From NCBI RefSeq assembly GCF_019083995.1, contig NZ_JAHRCU010000010.1:1-64000 (forward strand): 64,000 nucleotides of DNA, in the 5' to 3' direction. Source of the DNA: Roseococcus sp. SDR (GTDB lineage: Bacteria > Pseudomonadota > Alphaproteobacteria > Acetobacterales > Acetobacteraceae). Shown here piece after piece: positions 15,293 to 24,949 of the stretch; within the stretch, counting starts at the first letter, position 1, and the number at the start of each line of letters is the position of its first letter. The notes beneath the pieces are model-generated. The model saw only the letters and a program-made list of their open reading frames with translations, did not search any database and had not been told where the DNA came from. The translations under genes and the position numbers were made by a program.

Positions 15293-15701
15293 AGCGCATC
15301 TGCGCCGCCATCTCGGGGGCGAACTCCATCAGGGCGGGGCGCAAGGCGGCGGGCCAGGGCGCCACGCGGGGCGGGATGAAGAGGGAGGGCCGGTCCCCCT
15401 CCAGCAGCAGGATCACCACGGATTCCGTCTGGGTGTCGAAGCCCAGGAAGACGCGCGCCTCGGCTGTCACGCCGTAGCCGTGGATCCAGGGGGCGGTGAC
15501 GGCGAGTGGCGGGCCGGCGCCGCGCAGCGTGTCGCTGACGAGGCGCTGCCGGCCGGCCGCCATGGAGCGCAGGCGGGGGCCGACGGCGGGGTGGCGAGCC
15601 AGCTCCAGCACGGGCTGGCCGGCGAGTTCCAGTACCTCGGGCGCCTCGGCGCGGGCGACCCCCGGCAGCAGCGCGAAGGCCAGGAGTGCGCGCCTATTCA
15701 A
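15267..15701 (-). CDS. Secreted hypothetical protein
   Basis: 144 aa. The start is TTG at 15701, inside the last codons of the Bug receptor gene upstream (eight-base overlap). This gives MNRRALLAFALLPGVARAEA, a clean Sec signal peptide. The mature part (about 125 aa) has no motif I recognise, with segments TAPWIHGYGVTAEARVFLGF and RPSLFIPP. It is co-transcribed and coupled with the Bug receptor, so a periplasmic role linked to that receptor is possible but unsupported. Confidence 0.6.
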   Translation of the reverse strand: MNRRALLAFALLPGVARAEAPEVLELAGQPVLELARHPAVGPRLRSMAAGRQRLVSDTLRGAGPPLAVTAPWIHGYGVTAEARVFLGFDTQTESVVILLLEGDRPSLFIPPRVAPWPAALRPALMEFAPEMAAQMRFNEPAARP

Positions 15702-16653
15702 TGCGGATATTCGCCACGCGCACCAGCTCGGCCATGCTGGCGCGGCCCTGCGTCACGAAGCGGGCGAAATCCTCGGGGCTGTTGCCGACCGGCACGGCGG
15801 CAAGCTGGGCGAGGCGCGCCTGGACCGGCGCCTCGGCCAGCGTCGCCACCAGCGCCGCATGGATGGCGGCGATGGGGGCGGCGGGCGTGCCGGCGGGGGC
15901 GAAGAGGGCGGCCCATTCGCTGATCTCGATGCCCGGCGTGCCGAGCTCGGCGAAGGTCGGGATCTCGGGGCGGAGCGGCACGCGCTGCGCGGCGGAGACG
16001 GCGATGAAGCGCGCGCGGCCGCTATCCACGATGGGCCCGGCCGAGAGCATGGTGATGAAGCAGCCATCCAGCGTGCCGGCCGCGAGATCGCGCGCCGCAT
16101 CGGCACCGCCGCGATAGGGGACGTGCGTCGTCTCGATGCCGGCCGCGCGGTTGAGCTGGGCGAGGCCGAGATGGCCGGCTGTGGCGTTCCCCTGGGTGCC
16201 GATGTTGAGCGGCTGGCGGCGGGCCAGGGCGATGAACTCGGCCAGGTTTCGGGCCGGCAGGTCGGCCTTCACGGCCAGCACCTGCGGGAAGGTGCAGACC
16301 AGCGAGATGGGGGTGAAGGCAGTGGCGTAGTCGAAGGGCAGGCCGCGCAGCAGGCTCGGGTTCACGATGTGGCTGGAGGCGTCCATCAGCAGCGTGGTGC
16401 CATCGGGCGCGCTGCGGGCGACCTCGCCGCCGCCGACCGAGCCGCTGGCACCGGTGCGGTTCTCGACGACGATGGAGGTGCCAAGGCGCTCGCTCATGCG
16501 GGGGGTGATGCTGCGCGTCGCGCTGTCGGCAGCGCCGCCCGCGGCGAAGGGCACGACGATGCGGATGGGGCGGGCCTGCTGGGCGCGCGCGAGGCGTGGC
16601 GCGGCGAGGGCGAGCGCGGGCAAGGCGAGGGCGAGGCGGCGCGGCGTGGTCAT
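15694..16653 (-). CDS. Bug-family (TctC) tripartite tricarboxylate receptor, copy 1
   Basis: 319 aa. It is a periplasmic solute receptor of the TTT family, which binds small carboxylates. The signal peptide is MTTPRRLALALPALALAAPRLARA. The ligand-loop signature appears as PIRIVVPFAAGGAADSATR, and the second family motif as VVENRTGASGSVGGGEVARSA. No TctA/TctB membrane genes are in the window, as is usual for Bug proteins, so the transport partner and ligand are unknown. The next gene overlaps its 3' end. Confidence 0.93.
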   Translation of the reverse strand: MTTPRRLALALPALALAAPRLARAQQARPIRIVVPFAAGGAADSATRSITPRMSERLGTSIVVENRTGASGSVGGGEVARSAPDGTTLLMDASSHIVNPSLLRGLPFDYATAFTPISLVCTFPQVLAVKADLPARNLAEFIALARRQPLNIGTQGNATAGHLGLAQLNRAAGIETTHVPYRGGADAARDLAAGTLDGCFITMLSAGPIVDSGRARFIAVSAAQRVPLRPEIPTFAELGTPGIEISEWAALFAPAGTPAAPIAAIHAALVATLAEAPVQARLAQLAAVPVGNSPEDFARFVTQGRASMAELVRVANIRIE

Positions 16654-17485: not shown

Positions 17486-18232
17486 TCAGGCGGATTTGGC
17501 GGGCGCCTCGCTCCGTGTCGAGAGGCTGCGCGAGAGGATCGCGTCCTTGCTGCCGCCCATCACCTCGGCGGCGAGCGAGCCGGGGATGGCGGCGCGGCGC
17601 TCGGCGGTGACGAAGAGGCGGGCGATGAGCGTGCAGATCGTGTAGTAGATCAGCGCCACTAGGCTGTAGATCAGCAGCACGCGGAAGGTGGCGCTCGCCA
17701 GCAATTCGCCCGAGCGCATGAGCTCCAGCACCGAGATGGTGGCAACCAGCGAGGTCTCCTTCACCAGCACCGTCGCGTAATTGCCGAGCGCGGGCAGGAT
17801 GGTGCGGAAGGCCTGGGGGGCGACCACGAGCGCGAAGGATTGCAGCGGGCTGAGGCCCAGCGCGAGGGCCGCCTGGCGCTGGCCGCGATCCACCGCCTGG
17901 ATGCCGCCGCGGAAGAGCTCGGCCAGATAGGCGCCGAAATTGAGGCTGAGCGCGAGGACGCCCGCCACGAAGGCGGGCATGACGATGCCGAGCTCGGGCA
18001 GGCCGTAATAGATGTAGAAGATCTGCAGCAGCAGCGGCGTGCCGCGGATGAGCGAGATGAAGCCGCGTGCGGGCGCCGAGAGCAGCGTGACGCCGGACAT
18101 GCGCGCGCCGCAGACGAGCAGGCCGACGGTGACGGCACCCACGGCCGAGCAGGCGGCGAGCGCCAGCGTCCAGACCGCGCCGCGCAGCAGCGCGGGCATG
18201 TAGAGCAGGATTTCAGCCCAGAGCTCGGCCAT
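17486..18232 (-). CDS. Amino-acid-type ABC transporter permease (HisM/GlnP family)
   Basis: 248 aa, about five transmembrane helices. It is an inner-membrane permease of the polar amino-acid/opine uptake family. The EAA loop for ATPase docking is visible as ALALGLSPLQSFALVVAPQA, followed by FRTILPALGNYATVLVKETSL, a strong family signature. It starts four bases after the binding-protein gene. No ATPase gene is in this cluster, so it must borrow one encoded elsewhere. Confidence 0.92.
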   Translation of the reverse strand: MAELWAEILLYMPALLRGAVWTLALAACSAVGAVTVGLLVCGARMSGVTLLSAPARGFISLIRGTPLLLQIFYIYYGLPELGIVMPAFVAGVLALSLNFGAYLAELFRGGIQAVDRGQRQAALALGLSPLQSFALVVAPQAFRTILPALGNYATVLVKETSLVATISVLELMRSGELLASATFRVLLIYSLVALIYYTICTLIARLFVTAERRAAIPGSLAAEVMGGSKDAILSRSLSTRSEAPAKSA

Positions 18233-18236
18233 CAGC

Positions 18237-19034
18237 TCAAGGGATCAGCGTGTCGGGGATGTCCCAGCTGGTGAGGATGCGCAGCAGCTCGCCCTCGGCC
18301 TTGATCGCTGCCACCGCCGTGTTCACGGCGGCGAGCAGCGTCGCGTTGCCCTTGGCGACCGCCATGCCGATCTGCCAGCGATTCACGGGCGTATAGCCCT
18401 GGACGAGCTTGAGGTCGGTGAGGCGCCGCGCGCGGAGCTGATAGGCGATGCTGGGCGGGTCGATGAGGGCCACGTCAATGCGGCCGGCGCGCAGGTCCAG
18501 CAGCATGGTGGGCGCGTCGGGATAGGTCCGCACCTCGCGGATGCCGGGGACGGCGCGCAGCATCTCGAGCTGCACGGTGCCGACCTGGGCGCCGACATTC
18601 TGGCCGGAGAGGGCGTTGAGGTCGGGGTAGGCGCGGTTGTTGTTGCCGCGCGTCACGAAGCCCTCGCCCCAGCCATAGATGGGGATCGAGAAATCCAGCA
18701 CCTCGGCGCGGGCGGGCGTGATGAAGAGGGGGGCCGACATGAGGTCGGCGCGGCCGCTCGTGATCTCGCCGATCAGGCTGCCGAAGGGCACTTCGGAGAA
18801 GGTGGCGCGCACGCCGATCCGCCGCGCGACGGATTCGCCCACCTCGAACATGATGCCGCGCAGCGTGTTCGTCGTCGGGTCCAGAAAGCCATGCGGCGGC
18901 GAGGCGGAGGTGGTGACGATGCGCAGCGTGCCGCGCTGGCGGATCGCATCCAGCGACTGGGCGCTGGCAAGGCCGGCGGGCAGGCCGAGGCCCGCGGCGA
19001 GAAGGAGGGAACGGCGGCTGGTCTCGACACTCAC
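18237..19034 (-). CDS. Amino-acid-type ABC transporter substrate-binding protein
   Basis: 265 aa. It is a periplasmic binding protein of the SBP_bac_3 family. The start is GTG at 19034 with AGGAGA six bases upstream; the frame is open far beyond, but that part is antisense to the next gene. The signal peptide is VETSRRSLLLAAGLGLPAGLASA, with a twin-arginine-like SRRSLLL that could also suit Sec. The mature start LDAIRQRGTLRIVTTSASPP and PLFITPARAEVLDFSIPIY fit the family. It is paired with the permease and divergent from the ureohydrolase-like gene 87 bases away. Confidence 0.9.
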   Translation of the reverse strand: MSVETSRRSLLLAAGLGLPAGLASAQSLDAIRQRGTLRIVTTSASPPHGFLDPTTNTLRGIMFEVGESVARRIGVRATFSEVPFGSLIGEITSGRADLMSAPLFITPARAEVLDFSIPIYGWGEGFVTRGNNNRAYPDLNALSGQNVGAQVGTVQLEMLRAVPGIREVRTYPDAPTMLLDLRAGRIDVALIDPPSIAYQLRARRLTDLKLVQGYTPVNRWQIGMAVAKGNATLLAAVNTAVAAIKAEGELLRILTSWDIPDTLIP

Positions 19035-19121
19035 GGCGCATCTCCTGCTGTCTGGCGTGAGATTGACCGAGCCTCCCGCGATGCACAAGACTTGTCCGGA
19101 ACTCTGCTGGAGCTGCGATCC
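19035..19121. promoter_or_regulatory. Shared divergent promoter region, binding protein / ureohydrolase-like gene
   Basis: These 87 bases must carry promoters for both divergent genes. A perfect palindrome ACAAG-A-CTTGT lies at 19085-19095 and could be an operator. GGAG at 19109-19112 is the probable Shine-Dalgarno of the plus-strand gene. No regulator gene is adjacent. The operator call is inference only. Confidence 0.35.
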
Positions 19122-20057
19122 ATGGCCTCCCCCTTCACGCCGCCGCTGACCTTCATGGGCATGCCCGCGGGTGCGCCGGGGCCGGGCAATCGCGTGGCCA
19201 TTCTGGGCGTGCCGTTTGATTGCGGCATCCACCCCTTCCGCATCGGCAGCCGCGAGGGGCCGGCCAGCGTGCGCGCGCAATCGGGGCTGACGCGGCGGCA
19301 TCATCCCACGCTGGCGGATGTGGATATCCCGACGCTGCTGGGCGCGGTGGATGCCGGCGATGTCGCGGGCATCACGCCGGGGAAGATCGCCGAGGCGCAT
19401 CCGCTGATCGAGGCGGCGGCGGATGCGATCCTGACGGCGGGCGCGGTGCCGATCGGCATCGGTGGCGATGGCTCGGTCTCGCTGCCGCTCATGCGCGCGG
19501 CGGCGCGGCATCATCCGGGGCTGGTGGCGCTGCATGTGGACAGCCACACGGATGCCTATCCGTACAATCCGGATGACCCCTTCGATGCGTCGAACCAGTT
19601 CACCCATGCCGCCGAGGAAGGCCTGGTGGACCCGAATTCCACCTGGCATGTCGGCATCCGCGGCTTCACCGGCGTGCGCGGCGTGCTGAAGCATGCGGAC
19701 AAGCTCGGCTTTCGCGTGCTGACGACGGAGGATCTGATCCGCCGCGGCACGGCGCAGGCGATGACCGAGTTCCGCGAGGTGGTGGCGGACCGGCCGCTCT
19801 ATCTGTGCTGGGACATGGATGTGTTCGACCCGTCGGTGGCGCCCGGTGTCGCGACGCCCTCCTGGGGCGGGCTGACGGCGCGGGAGGGGATCGAGCTGAT
19901 GCGCAGCCTCTCCGGGCTGAACATCGTGGCGATGGATTTCAACACGGTGAGCCCGGGGCATGATGTGCAGGGGATGGCGGCCTCGCTTTGCGGGCACATG
20001 ATGATGGAGGCGATGATCCTGCTGGCCGGGCGCTGGGGGCTGCTGCCGGAGGGGTGA
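19122..20057 (+). CDS. Ureohydrolase-fold (arginase/agmatinase family) protein lacking key catalytic residues
   Basis: 311 aa. Overall it aligns with agmatinases: GGDxS (114-118), DSHTD (140-144), EEGLVDP, WDMDVFDP (230-237), GGLT. Three positions that matter in E. coli SpeB differ. The first metal-ligand histidine of GGDH is Gly117, the loop histidine of FDHGT is Ala156, and the guanidinium-binding glutamate after MD-V-V is Thr275. D140, H142, D144, D231 and D233 remain, so one metal site may survive. It is divergent from an amino-acid-type ABC binding protein and permease, which suggests a nitrogenous substrate. It probably does not hydrolyse ordinary guanidines. The start at 19122 was chosen for its GGAG; the longer frame upstream is antisense. 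Confidence 0.85.
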   Translation: MASPFTPPLTFMGMPAGAPGPGNRVAILGVPFDCGIHPFRIGSREGPASVRAQSGLTRRHHPTLADVDIPTLLGAVDAGDVAGITPGKIAEAHPLIEAAADAILTAGAVPIGIGGDGSVSLPLMRAAARHHPGLVALHVDSHTDAYPYNPDDPFDASNQFTHAAEEGLVDPNSTWHVGIRGFTGVRGVLKHADKLGFRVLTTEDLIRRGTAQAMTEFREVVADRPLYLCWDMDVFDPSVAPGVATPSWGGLTAREGIELMRSLSGLNIVAMDFNTVSPGHDVQGMAASLCGHMMMEAMILLAGRWGLLPEG

Positions 20058-21620: not shown

Positions 21621-22549
21621 GGGAGGCCTTCCTCGTCCTGATCGAGGTGGTGGCGCCGATCTTCGCCATCATCGCCGCCGGGTATTTCTGCGCGGCGCGC
21701 AACATCGTGGATGCGGCGGGGTTCAAGGGGCTGAACGTCTTCGCCTTCTCGCTGGCGGCGCCCGCGCTGCTCTTCGCCAGCGGCACGGCGGGGCACCAGG
21801 GCGGAGGGGCGGCGGCCTTCGCGTATTTCCTTGCGGCGGGTCTGCTCTATGCCGTGGTGCTCTGGGGCGCGCGGCGGGCCGGCATGGGGCTGGCGGCGGG
21901 CGGGATGCTGGCGCTCGATGTCAGCTACGGCAACACGGTGATGATGGGCATTCCGCTCATCCTCGCCGCCTTCGGCACGCCGGGGCTTTCCATCCTGCTG
22001 ACCATCCTGGCCCTGCATTCCATGGTGCTGCTGGGGGCTGCGACGGTGGTGGCCGAGATCGGGCAGAATGACCGCGCCGCACCCCTCAAGCTGCTGAAGA
22101 CCACGGCGCTGGGTGTGGCGCGCAATCCGGTGGTGATGGCGGTGATCCTCGCCATGCTCTGGAGCACGCTGCATCTGCCGGTGCCGGGTGCCGCGCGGCG
22201 CACGCTGGAATTGCTGGGGGCCGCTTCGCCGCCCGTGGCGCTCTTCTGCCTGGGCGGCAGCCTGCGCGGCTTCGATGCGCGGCATGCCTGGAAGCAGATG
22301 TCGGTGACCGTCTCGCTCAAGCTGGTGGCGCTGCCGCTGCTGGTCTGGGCCATCACGGCGGCGATGGGGCTTTCGGAGCTGGAGATCGCGGTGGCGGTGG
22401 TGACGGCGGCGCTGCCAACCGGCGCCAATGCCTTCCTGCTGGCGCGGCGCTATGCGGTGGGGACGGAAGCCTCGGGCGCCTCCGTCCTGGTCTCCACGCT
22501 GCTCTCGCTGCTCACGCTGACGGTGCTGCTGGCGGTGTTCCGGCCGTAG
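21617..22549 (+). CDS. AEC-family transporter (auxin efflux carrier-like)
   Basis: 310 aa, about ten transmembrane helices. AEC proteins are inner-membrane carriers of organic acids such as malate and malonate, or of auxin in plants. The N-terminal VVAPIFAIIAAGYFCAARN, the middle DVSYGNTVMMGIPLI and the C-terminal ALPTGANAFLLARRY are characteristic. The start is GTG within the gmk stop (GTGA). Its 3' end overlaps the convergent NCS2-like gene by 38 bases. The substrate is unknown. Confidence 0.88.
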   Translation: MREAFLVLIEVVAPIFAIIAAGYFCAARNIVDAAGFKGLNVFAFSLAAPALLFASGTAGHQGGGAAAFAYFLAAGLLYAVVLWGARRAGMGLAAGGMLALDVSYGNTVMMGIPLILAAFGTPGLSILLTILALHSMVLLGAATVVAEIGQNDRAAPLKLLKTTALGVARNPVVMAVILAMLWSTLHLPVPGAARRTLELLGAASPPVALFCLGGSLRGFDARHAWKQMSVTVSLKLVALPLLVWAITAAMGLSELEIAVAVVTAALPTGANAFLLARRYAVGTEASGASVLVSTLLSLLTLTVLLAVFRP

Positions 22550-24137
22550 CTTCGGCCTTGGGCGCGGGCTTCAGCTTCGCCTTGGCCTTCGCCACCAGAT
22601 CCTCCACCCAGGCCGGCGCCTGCCCCTCCTGCCGGGCGCAGGCCATGAGGAACACCGCCACCATGAGGTAGGCGAAGGCGAGTGCCGGCGTCACCGCGAA
22701 GCCCACCGCCGGGCCATGCATCAGGCCGAAGAAGGTCATCACCGCGCCGGCCGCCGCGAAGCCCGAGGCCTTCACATAGTCGCGCTCGATGATGAAGACG
22801 GCGATGGCGCCGAGCACGAGGCCACCCAGGATCGCGCCCTCGCCCATCACGGCCAGGCCCGGATAGAGCACGCCCATGCCGATCAGCTTGTCCATGCCGA
22901 CGGCGGCCGCATTGGTGCCGGCGGCCCCCAGCGCGCCATCGATCAGCGTCTTCGCCCAATGCGCGAGATGCGGCGTGAGTGAGAGGACGACGGCCGGCGC
23001 ATGGCCCTTCGGCACCTCCTGGAAGGCCTGCGCGCCAATCAGCATGCCGATGTAGAGCAGGATGGGCGCGATCGCGACGACGGGCACCAGCGCCAGCAGC
23101 ACCGAGGCGATGCCGAGCCAGGTGAAGACCAGCACCGCCACACCCGTCGCCGCCGAATAGCCGATGCGCCCGCCCATGGATTTCCAGCCCGGGTGGCCGA
23201 TATAGACGGCGTTGATGAAGGGGTTGCCCATGCAGCAGCCGATCAGGCTCACCACGCCATCCGCCGTCAGCACGCGCGTGGTGGGGTAGTGGTCGCCGGC
23301 GGCTTCGGCGCTCTCCACATTGTCCAGCGCTTCCACGAGGTCATAGATGCCGAAGGGAATGGCGGTGACCAGGATGATGCCGATGAACTGGAAACCGCCG
23401 AAGACATGCCCGATGGCGGGGATGGGAATGTGCAGCCCCAATTGGCTGAAGGAGGCGCCGAGTGCCGTCAGCCCCACGCCGCCGAAGCCGAGGCCGATGG
23501 CCGCCGCCCCCCAGGCGATGACCAGGCCGAAGGCGATGGCCACCAGCCCCGCCGGAATGTTGCGCGGATAGCGGAAGCCGCCGAACCAGGCGACGAGGAT
23601 CACCGCGAAGCAGATGAGGCCGAGGATCGGCGTCATGAACATCTCCAGCGCCGGGCGCATGGCGATGAAGGTGACGGAGACGCCGGCCAGCGTGCCGAGC
23701 AGGGCGGCGCGCGGCGTGATGCGGCGGATCCAGGGGGCGGCATGCGCGCCGAAGATGAGCACGAAGCTCTGGATGAAGACCCAGGTGAGCCCGGCCTCCC
23801 ACCCCTTGATCGGATCGCCCGTCATCCGCGCGATGGGCATCATGATGACGAGGCAGACGACGAACATGTGCGGCACTGAAATGCCGGAGGGCAGGGCGCA
23901 GACATCCGAGCGCCCCGTCTCCTTCATCAGGCGCCAGCCGAGCCAGGCGTAGTAGCCGGTGGAGAGGAACATCATGAGGCCGGCCGCGGGCAGGATGCGG
24001 CCGAAGACGATCTCATCCGGCATGCCGACGACGAAGCGCAGCAGGCCGGTCAGCACCAGCAGGTTGACCAGGATATTGGTGCCGAAGCCGAACAGGGCGT
24101 TCCAGTCGCCCGGCGTCCAGAGTTGCGTGCGCATCAT
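22512..24137 (-). CDS. NCS2-like purine/pyrimidine-type permease
   Basis: 541 aa, roughly 12-14 transmembrane segments. It resembles nucleobase:cation symporter-2/AzgA-type permeases, with motifs such as [20 protein letters not shown] and [21 protein letters not shown]. The C-terminus carries a 35-residue lysine-, alanine- and proline-rich tail. Its ATG overlaps the stop of the cysteine hydrolase upstream by four bases, so the two are coupled and the permease probably imports that enzyme's substrate or a precursor. The exact substrate is unknown. Confidence 0.85.
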
Positions 24138-24811
24138 GCGGGGCTCTCCCTGAGGGCGGTGGTGGCGGCGGCGGAAGACGCGACCCAGCCGAAGATCCCG
24201 CCTTGGGCATGGATCATGGCGAGGGCGGCGGTGTGGAATGCGGGGAAGTAGGAGGCGCAGGCATCGCTGATGACGGCGCAGCGGAAGCCGCGGTCATTGG
24301 CCTCTCTGACGGTCGTGCTGACGCAGACCTCGGTGGTGACGCCGGCGACCAGCAGCGCCTCGATACCGCGGTTGCGCAGGATGTTCTCGAGGTCCGTCGC
24401 CCAGAAGGCGCCCTTGCCGGGCTTGTCCAGCACCACCTCGCCGGGGAGCGGCGCCAGTTCGGGGATGATGTCGTGCCCGGCCTCGCCGCGCACCAGGATG
24501 CGGCCCATGGGGCCGGGGTCGCCGATGCGCATGCCGGGCGGGCTGCGGGTGAGCTTGGCGGGCGGGCAATCGGTCAGGTCGGGGCGGTGGCCCTCGCGCG
24601 TGTGGATCACGAGCAGTCCGGCGGCGCGGCTGGCGGCGAGCAGTGCGGCGCAGGGGGCGATGGCCGAGTGGAGCTGTGACACGTCATTGCCCAGCGCCGC
24701 GCCGAAGCCGCCGGGCTCCAGGAAGTCGCGCTGCATGTCGATGATGATCGTGGCCGTGCGGGCGGGCTCGAAGGTGAAGGGGCCAGGCAGGGCCTCGATC
24801 CGACGCAGCAT
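24134..24811 (-). CDS. Isochorismatase-family amidohydrolase, biuret-hydrolase-like
   Basis: 225 aa, cytosolic cysteine hydrolase. The catalytic triad can be read as Asp25 (IIIDMQRDF), Lys130 (DKPGKGAF) and Cys163 (TTEVCVST). The stretches [31 protein letters not shown] and AQGGIFG match what I remember of Rhizobium BiuH, which turns biuret into allophanate. A related ureido or carbamoyl substrate is also possible. The start at 24811 follows GGAGGG with six-base spacing; a TTG at 24817 is the alternative. It is coupled to the NCS2-like permease. No allophanate hydrolase or AtzD/TrzD gene is nearby. Confidence 0.82.
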
Positions 24812-24949
24812 GCACAACCCTCCGGGTGTCGGAGGGAGTTAGCCCGGGCGCCGCAGGGTCTGGTGCGATAAAATGCGTGCGAATGGGGCGATTCCGCCGG
24901 GGTGACGGGTGGAATCGCCCTGAATCACGGCGTCATGCCGCGAAATTGG
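24812..24949. other. Intergenic region with a 10-bp inverted repeat
   Basis: The gap separates the ppx 3' end from the hydrolase start. GGGCGATTCC (24886-24895) and GGAATCGCCC (24911-24920) form a perfect 10-bp stem with a 15-base loop. It lies 30 bases past the ppx stop and could end that transcript, but no T-run follows on the minus strand. Confidence 0.45.

Follow-up and report, generated by a model that had tools for sequence, protein, structure and literature searches.

A conserved GGDG subfamily of arginase-family proteins altered at three catalytic positions

We found that the gene at positions 19122-20057 of the window, the 64,000-nucleotide stretch of Roseococcus sp. SDR DNA analysed here, encodes a member of a conserved ureohydrolase subfamily in which a metal-ligand His, the catalytic His and the guanidinium-binding Glu have been replaced together and the metal motifs DxHxD and DxD have been kept. 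We put the chances at about even that the proteins of this GGDG subfamily are still metal-dependent C-N hydrolases that have abandoned guanidines.

The protein and its altered active site

The plus-strand open reading frame, free of internal stops, encodes 311 amino acids. The protein has both attributes of the ureohydrolase superfamily, a full-length match to the Pfam Arginase model PF00491 (217.5 bits against a cut-off of 22, E 3e-64, model positions 2-278 of 280) and the arginase alpha/beta fold. The AlphaFold2 model (mean pLDDT 93.8) superposes best on proclavaminate amidinohydrolase (1gq6; Z 43.6, rmsd 1.9, 296 aligned residues), with guanidinopropionase (3niq, Z 41.4) and E. coli agmatinase (7lol, Z 40.8) as other matches, and the best sequence match among solved structures is 3-guanidinopropionase (3nip, E 4e-47). 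The equivalog scores fall below the cut-offs for agmatinase (TIGR01230, 136.9 bits against 174.3), formimidoylglutamase HutG (TIGR01227, 83.3 against 229.15) and arginase (58 against 227.6). The single other arginase-family gene of this genome, on contig C17, is canonical (GGDH, THGT, VEVSP). The gene and the residues discussed below are as follows.

19122..20057, + strand: arginase-family (PF00491) protein of the GGDG subfamily, 311 aa (open reading frame, Pfam, relatives and tree)
19230..19232, + strand: H37, an insertion in the beta1-alpha1 loop that is absent from SpeB (alignment; loop from DSSP of the model)
19470..19472, + strand: G117, in place of the metal-A ligand His126 of SpeB (Gly in 71 of 71)
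19539..19553, + strand: D140-S-H142-T-D144, the kept metal motif DxHxD (invariant in relatives)
19587..19589, + strand: A156, in place of the catalytic His163 of SpeB (never His in relatives)
19812..19820, + strand: D231-M232-D233, the kept metal motif DxD (invariant in relatives)
19863..19865, + strand: W248, in the loop after the DxD motif (Trp in 70 of 71 members, non-Trp in canonical members)
19941..19946, + strand: N274-T275, in place of V273-E274 of SpeB, E274 being the guanidinium-binding Glu (alignment)

Alignment with E. coli SpeB bears out the three catalytic replacements, and the intact DxHxD and DxD motifs, that the sequence-only reading had proposed: G117, A156 and T275 correspond to H126, H163 and E274, and D140, H142, D144, D231 and D233 correspond to D149, H151, D153, D230 and D232. 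Five of the six canonical ligands (H, D-x-H-x-D, D-x-D) are therefore retained, the first His being Gly throughout the subfamily. Its loss does not exclude superfamily membership, since Asn occupies the same position in accepted formiminoglutamases. The catalytic His163 and guanidinium-binding Glu274 that mark agmatinases are A156 and T275, and the Glu that HutG enzymes keep before N/D-P is likewise T275. The protein resembles SpeB in fold, in its DxHxD and DxD ligands and in length, and differs from it in the G/A/T triad and in the additional H37, W248 and N274. Both 3nip and 1gq6 carry GGDH, HGT and the Glu preceding VSP, all three of which are missing here.

A single conserved clade

A scan of our genome collection recovered 60 loci at 95 to 45% identity, every one of them GGDG. 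Their hosts are mainly Alphaproteobacteria and Actinomycetota; the proteobacterial ones comprise Acetobacteraceae, Rhizobiales, Rhodobacterales-type lineages, Rhodospirillales MAGs and one Betaproteobacteria MAG, and the actinomycetotal ones Nonomuraea, Leucobacter, Agromyces, Nocardioides and Pseudonocardia. Among genomes of the same family, 22 of 249 hold a relative that is 59% or more identical; below these, identity drops to 40% or less for the canonical paralogues. In a class-wide sample a member, again GGDG, is present in 16 of 289 genomes.

In a tree built with the diagnostic columns masked, the 71 members form one clade (SH-aLRT 100), all GGDG, with a single change on the tree. The altered positions are conserved jointly, as expected of the separate subfamily that had been suggested: all 71 members have Gly at position 117, and none has His at position 156 (A 26, P 21, N 12, T 9, S 2, G 1) or Glu at position 275 (T 69, C 1, A 1). 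N274 is Asn in all 71 members, and position 37 is His in 66 of the 70 that have a residue there. The positions conserved in the clade and unlike those of canonical members are H37 (the insertion), Y146, H176, C229, M232, F235, W248, N274 and T275. The clade is thus defined by G117, N274, T/C/A275 and a non-His residue at 156. The tree gives it a single origin, and dN/dS between close pairs, 0.02-0.23, shows purifying selection. The case that would have undone the idea, normal His/His/Glu homologues around a sole degenerate copy, does not arise, since all 71 relatives are altered; conservation, tree and dN/dS together rule out a degenerate single copy, and conservation across relatives excludes sequencing error and drift as sources of the three changes.

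The status of the clade as a distinct subfamily is well supported by these sequence comparisons, which place it as an unnamed bacterial branch, a variant within the known arginase/agmatinase superfamily. Members carry the NCBI label 'arginase family protein' (for example in Methylobacterium, Bosea and Caballeronia), and we found no paper naming the subfamily in the open-access literature searched, most subscription journals being outside reach.

The nearest outgroup (L025, L029, L031; SH-aLRT 95) has Ala in place of the catalytic His and keeps GGDH and Glu, which suggests that the catalytic His was lost first and the metal-A His and Glu later. These outgroup loci also have DUF1989 genes and an SBP_bac_3/permease pair.

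Loci L154, L155 and L156 represent the sister clade: GGDH and Glu are kept, Ala stands where the catalytic His would be, and DUF1989 genes and an SBP/permease pair are encoded nearby. A distant arginase-family protein (L133, genome G261) has Gln at the metal-A ligand (GGDQ) and retains HGM and Glu.

Gene neighbourhoods

As the sequence-only reading had described, the gene diverges from an ABC uptake pair; the gap between them is 87 bp.

17486..18232, - strand: ABC permease of amino-acid type with the HEQRo 3TM domain (profile matches)
18237..19034, - strand: SBP_bac_3 amino-acid-type ABC substrate-binding protein with a signal-like N-terminus (profile matches)
19035..19121, no strand: divergent intergenic region, 87 bp up to the ATG start codon at 19122 (neither a sigma-70-like nor an Rfam match)

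The pair has no ATPase gene next to it, and neither a sigma-70-like promoter nor a terminator consensus was found in the 19035-19121 region. A guanidine riboswitch was considered and rejected: neither it nor any other structured RNA reached gathering score between 16000 and 26000 of the window, and in seven related loci the only match was an unrelated suhB.

Of seven close relatives, four (L033, L034, L037, L039) have the pair next to the gene; it was not found in L035, L036 and L038, which counts against an importer-fed enzyme. The expectation that it would stay adjacent thus holds in part: the importer linkage is recurrent in several lineages, yet patchy among near relatives. The nearest outside copy of the window pair lies beside the Caballeronia homologue (SBP 48%, permease 61%). 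Across 85 unique loci, the permease cluster occurs within five genes of the subfamily gene in 21, compared with none of 427 distant genes (p 5e-5, kinship ignored), and M20 genes occur in 13 (p 0.013, kinship again ignored); LysR genes (14), the SBP cluster (14) and M28 genes (10) are other neighbours. On the Methylobacterium plasmid pNYY1_1 the PGAP annotation reads M28, LysR, then ATPase, SBP, permease, M20 and arginase family protein. In Leucobacter/Agromyces and in Caballeronia a gamma-glutamyltransferase-family gene and a GntR regulator accompany the importer, with RidA and an aminotransferase also present at the Caballeronia locus. The Methylobacterium and Caballeronia members have the accessions WP_083461112.1 and WP_213234515.1. 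Bosea pNBC550 holds an AtzE-family amidohydrolase (601 bits, cut-off 461) with FMN monooxygenase, flavin reductase, creatininase-family and PuuE-like genes. An arginine deiminase/dimethylargininase-type gene (PF02274) lies upstream in three loci, together with another ABC set; an SMP-30/gluconolactonase-type gene (Pfam SGL, 180 bits) is found nearby in 11 Acetobacteraceae loci (L157, L160-L162, L165-L170, L049); and the Rhodospirillales MAG loci have no importer beside the subfamily gene.

What these neighbourhoods have in common points to small nitrogen compounds that contain amide or ureido bonds; no single substrate follows, since the neighbours vary between lineages. Because the gene often stands beside nutrient importers, the enzyme probably degrades a nitrogen compound other than guanidines that the cell takes up. 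The AtzE, creatininase-family, PuuE-like, gamma-glutamyltransferase and deiminase-type neighbours belong to ureido/amide chemistry and support the reading of the protein as an active hydrolase.

The neighbourhoods also bear on whether the protein is a pseudoenzyme that binds a ligand or acts as a partner subunit, in the manner of metformin hydrolase's beta subunit. All three catalytic positions are gone, a canonical paralogue is present elsewhere in the window genome, and in metformin hydrolase a degenerate arginase-family protein, MetCb, acts as binding partner of MetCa, which itself has Asn in place of the catalytic His (PMC11271267). However, the MetCb clade lacks three to five of the six ligands (PMC11271267), whereas five of six are invariant in the GGDG clade, and the clade has acquired conserved polar residues around the positions that changed. 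Metformin hydrolase is encoded by paired genes with Ni chaperones; the GGDG gene stands alone. We looked for such a pairing and reject it, a second arginase-family gene being adjacent in none of the 85 unique loci; a canonical speB about 6.6 kb away occurs in Bosea only. The non-catalytic binding role raised from the sequence is therefore distinctly unlikely, given the five invariant ligands and the lack of a partner ureohydrolase alongside.

Several further genes in and around the window were noted in passing. An isochorismatase-fold hydrolase near biuret amidohydrolase BiuH (24134-24817, - strand; 278 bits against a cut-off of 370) adjoins a 541-aa multi-pass membrane protein (22512-24137, - strand) that looks transporter-like and has no Pfam or NCBIfam match; a similar BiuH-like gene lies at a similar distance from the subfamily gene in L033. 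A TctC-like tripartite tricarboxylate receptor-type binding protein (15694-16653, - strand) clusters with a TctC Pfam match in L056. The window genome does not hold the full M20/M28/GGT operon beside 19122-20057; on other contigs it has an M28 relative (47%) and a gamma-glutamyltransferase-family relative (51%), its M20 relatives being only weak. That M28 relative (L181, 5498-7727, contig C3 of genome G000) adjoins a small gene, with peptide-type ABC and hydantoinase-like genes beside it, and the small gene resembles (49%) one that lies between deiminase-like and arginase-family genes in L151.

Metal site, substrate and mechanism

In E. coli SpeB, metal A is bound by H126, D149, D153 and D230 and metal B by D149, H151, D230 and D232; the tightly bound Mn is held through H151, and a single Mn in that site is considered enough for activity, whereas H126 belongs to the weak site (PMC8125230). 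By analogy, a single metal at the H151-equivalent site could suffice for catalysis in the GGDG clade. The analogy also counts against an active hydrolase, since single changes are each damaging in SpeB: H163F retains 3-5% of activity, and E274A, which alters the residue that binds guanidinium, 1-2% (PMC8125230). The universal loss of this Glu points away from guanidines, and a non-guanidine substrate for the subfamily, as had been proposed, is plausible.

The suggestion of at most one metal is not supported as stated. In the T. cruzi formiminoglutamase the ligand position holds Asn (GGGN) and HGT reads SGT, and this enzyme was solved with two Mn (the PDB title of 4mxr gives Mn2+2); the B. subtilis formimidoylglutamase (3m1r) has GGDN and NGT. 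An enzyme may thus lack both the metal-A His and the catalytic His and still be an active binuclear hydrolase. DcsB, the N-hydroxyarginine hydrolase of D-cycloserine biosynthesis, is of arginase type and cleaves a guanidino compound with Cys in place of the metal-A His and no catalytic His.

The formiminoglutamases make it conceivable that the GGDG proteins are binuclear amidine- or guanidine-type hydrolases acting on a formimino or guanidino substrate and tolerating loss of both His residues, as 4mxr and 3m1r (Asn for the metal-A His, Ser or Asn for the catalytic His) do. The sister clade near DUF1989 genes (SH-aLRT 95) also lacks the catalytic His, and the deiminase/dimethylargininase-like gene in three loci fits as well. 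However, the known formiminoglutamases keep the Glu (SELNP, VEVDP), where the GGDG clade has Thr, Cys or Ala in 71 of 71, and they are farther in sequence (3m1r 22%, 4mxr 23% identity); the HutG model gives 83 bits against a cut-off of 229, and no hut genes were noticed near subfamily loci. The added loss of Glu sets the clade apart from formiminoglutamases, and we consider such a function unlikely.

HDACs and acetylpolyamine amidohydrolases share the fold, and the HDAC Zn site is the arginase Mn-B site (PMC5454378), exactly the ligands of which are kept in the GGDG clade. Loss of the metal-A ligand could therefore have left a mono-metal, possibly Zn, site in a deacylase of N-acyl substrates, a function to which the M20 deacylase-type and M28 peptidase-type neighbours, with their hint of acyl or peptide conjugates, would be suited. 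Against this, the remaining metal-A ligand D144 is also invariant, although needless in a pure metal-B enzyme; the His-His/Tyr machinery of HDACs is not evident in the 311-aa sequence, which has no detectable relation to HDACs and matches the Arginase Pfam model instead; and the M20 and M28 neighbours could deacylate by themselves. A single-metal deacylase of this kind is quite unlikely.

Our preferred reading is the metal-dependent C-N hydrolase acting on non-guanidines, with which the invariance of five of six metal ligands in 71 sequences agrees. In the mechanism we propose, D140, H142, D231 and D233 would hold a metal in the tight metal-B site, and D144 would either keep a second metal or orient the hydroxide. 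The metal-bound hydroxide would attack an sp2 carbon belonging to a neutral ureido/carbamoyl or amide group, and N274/T275, standing where canonical members have the guanidinium-binding Glu, would hold this group. The neighbouring ABC importer would supply the substrate, or a precursor of it, as a small polar nitrogen compound, and some other residue, H37 in the beta1-alpha1 loop being the likeliest, would take over the proton transfer of the lost His163.

The model strands end at the DxHxD, DxD and N274-T275 motifs (DSSP of the model), and H37, placed by alignment and DSSP of the model only, is predicted to follow the first strand at the same edge as the ligand motifs. In guanidinases, specificity is governed by the loop position neighbouring that of H37, Thr105 (PMC11410670). 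For both reasons we infer that H37 is the best candidate for a new acid/base, or else a ligand. H176 was also considered as a new active-site residue; it is conserved in 70 of 71 members, yet the model puts it at a strand start, at the edge opposite the ligands, so it is probably structural. The key residues of the guanidinase GdmH are Thr105, His222, Trp313 and Glu344 (PMC11410670); judged at the Glu344 position alone, the protein departs from this set, the equivalent before the SP motif being T275.

A fuller scenario, which we offer tentatively and hold somewhat improbable, is that stepwise loss of the catalytic His and then of the metal-A His and Glu gave rise to a ureido/amide metalloenzyme with a new His/Trp/Asn pocket, possibly a single metal and HDAC-like convergence, serving several uptake-coupled nitrogen catabolic operons.

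For the family, the automatic labels arginase-family or agmatinase-like would lead to a false prediction of urea or polyamine production. A clade that lacks all three guanidine-specific positions and keeps its metal site is a clear test of substrate-class change in the arginase fold, in which the sister group looks like an intermediate, and the operons named above, with their binding proteins, offer direct handles on the substrate of the GGDG enzymes.
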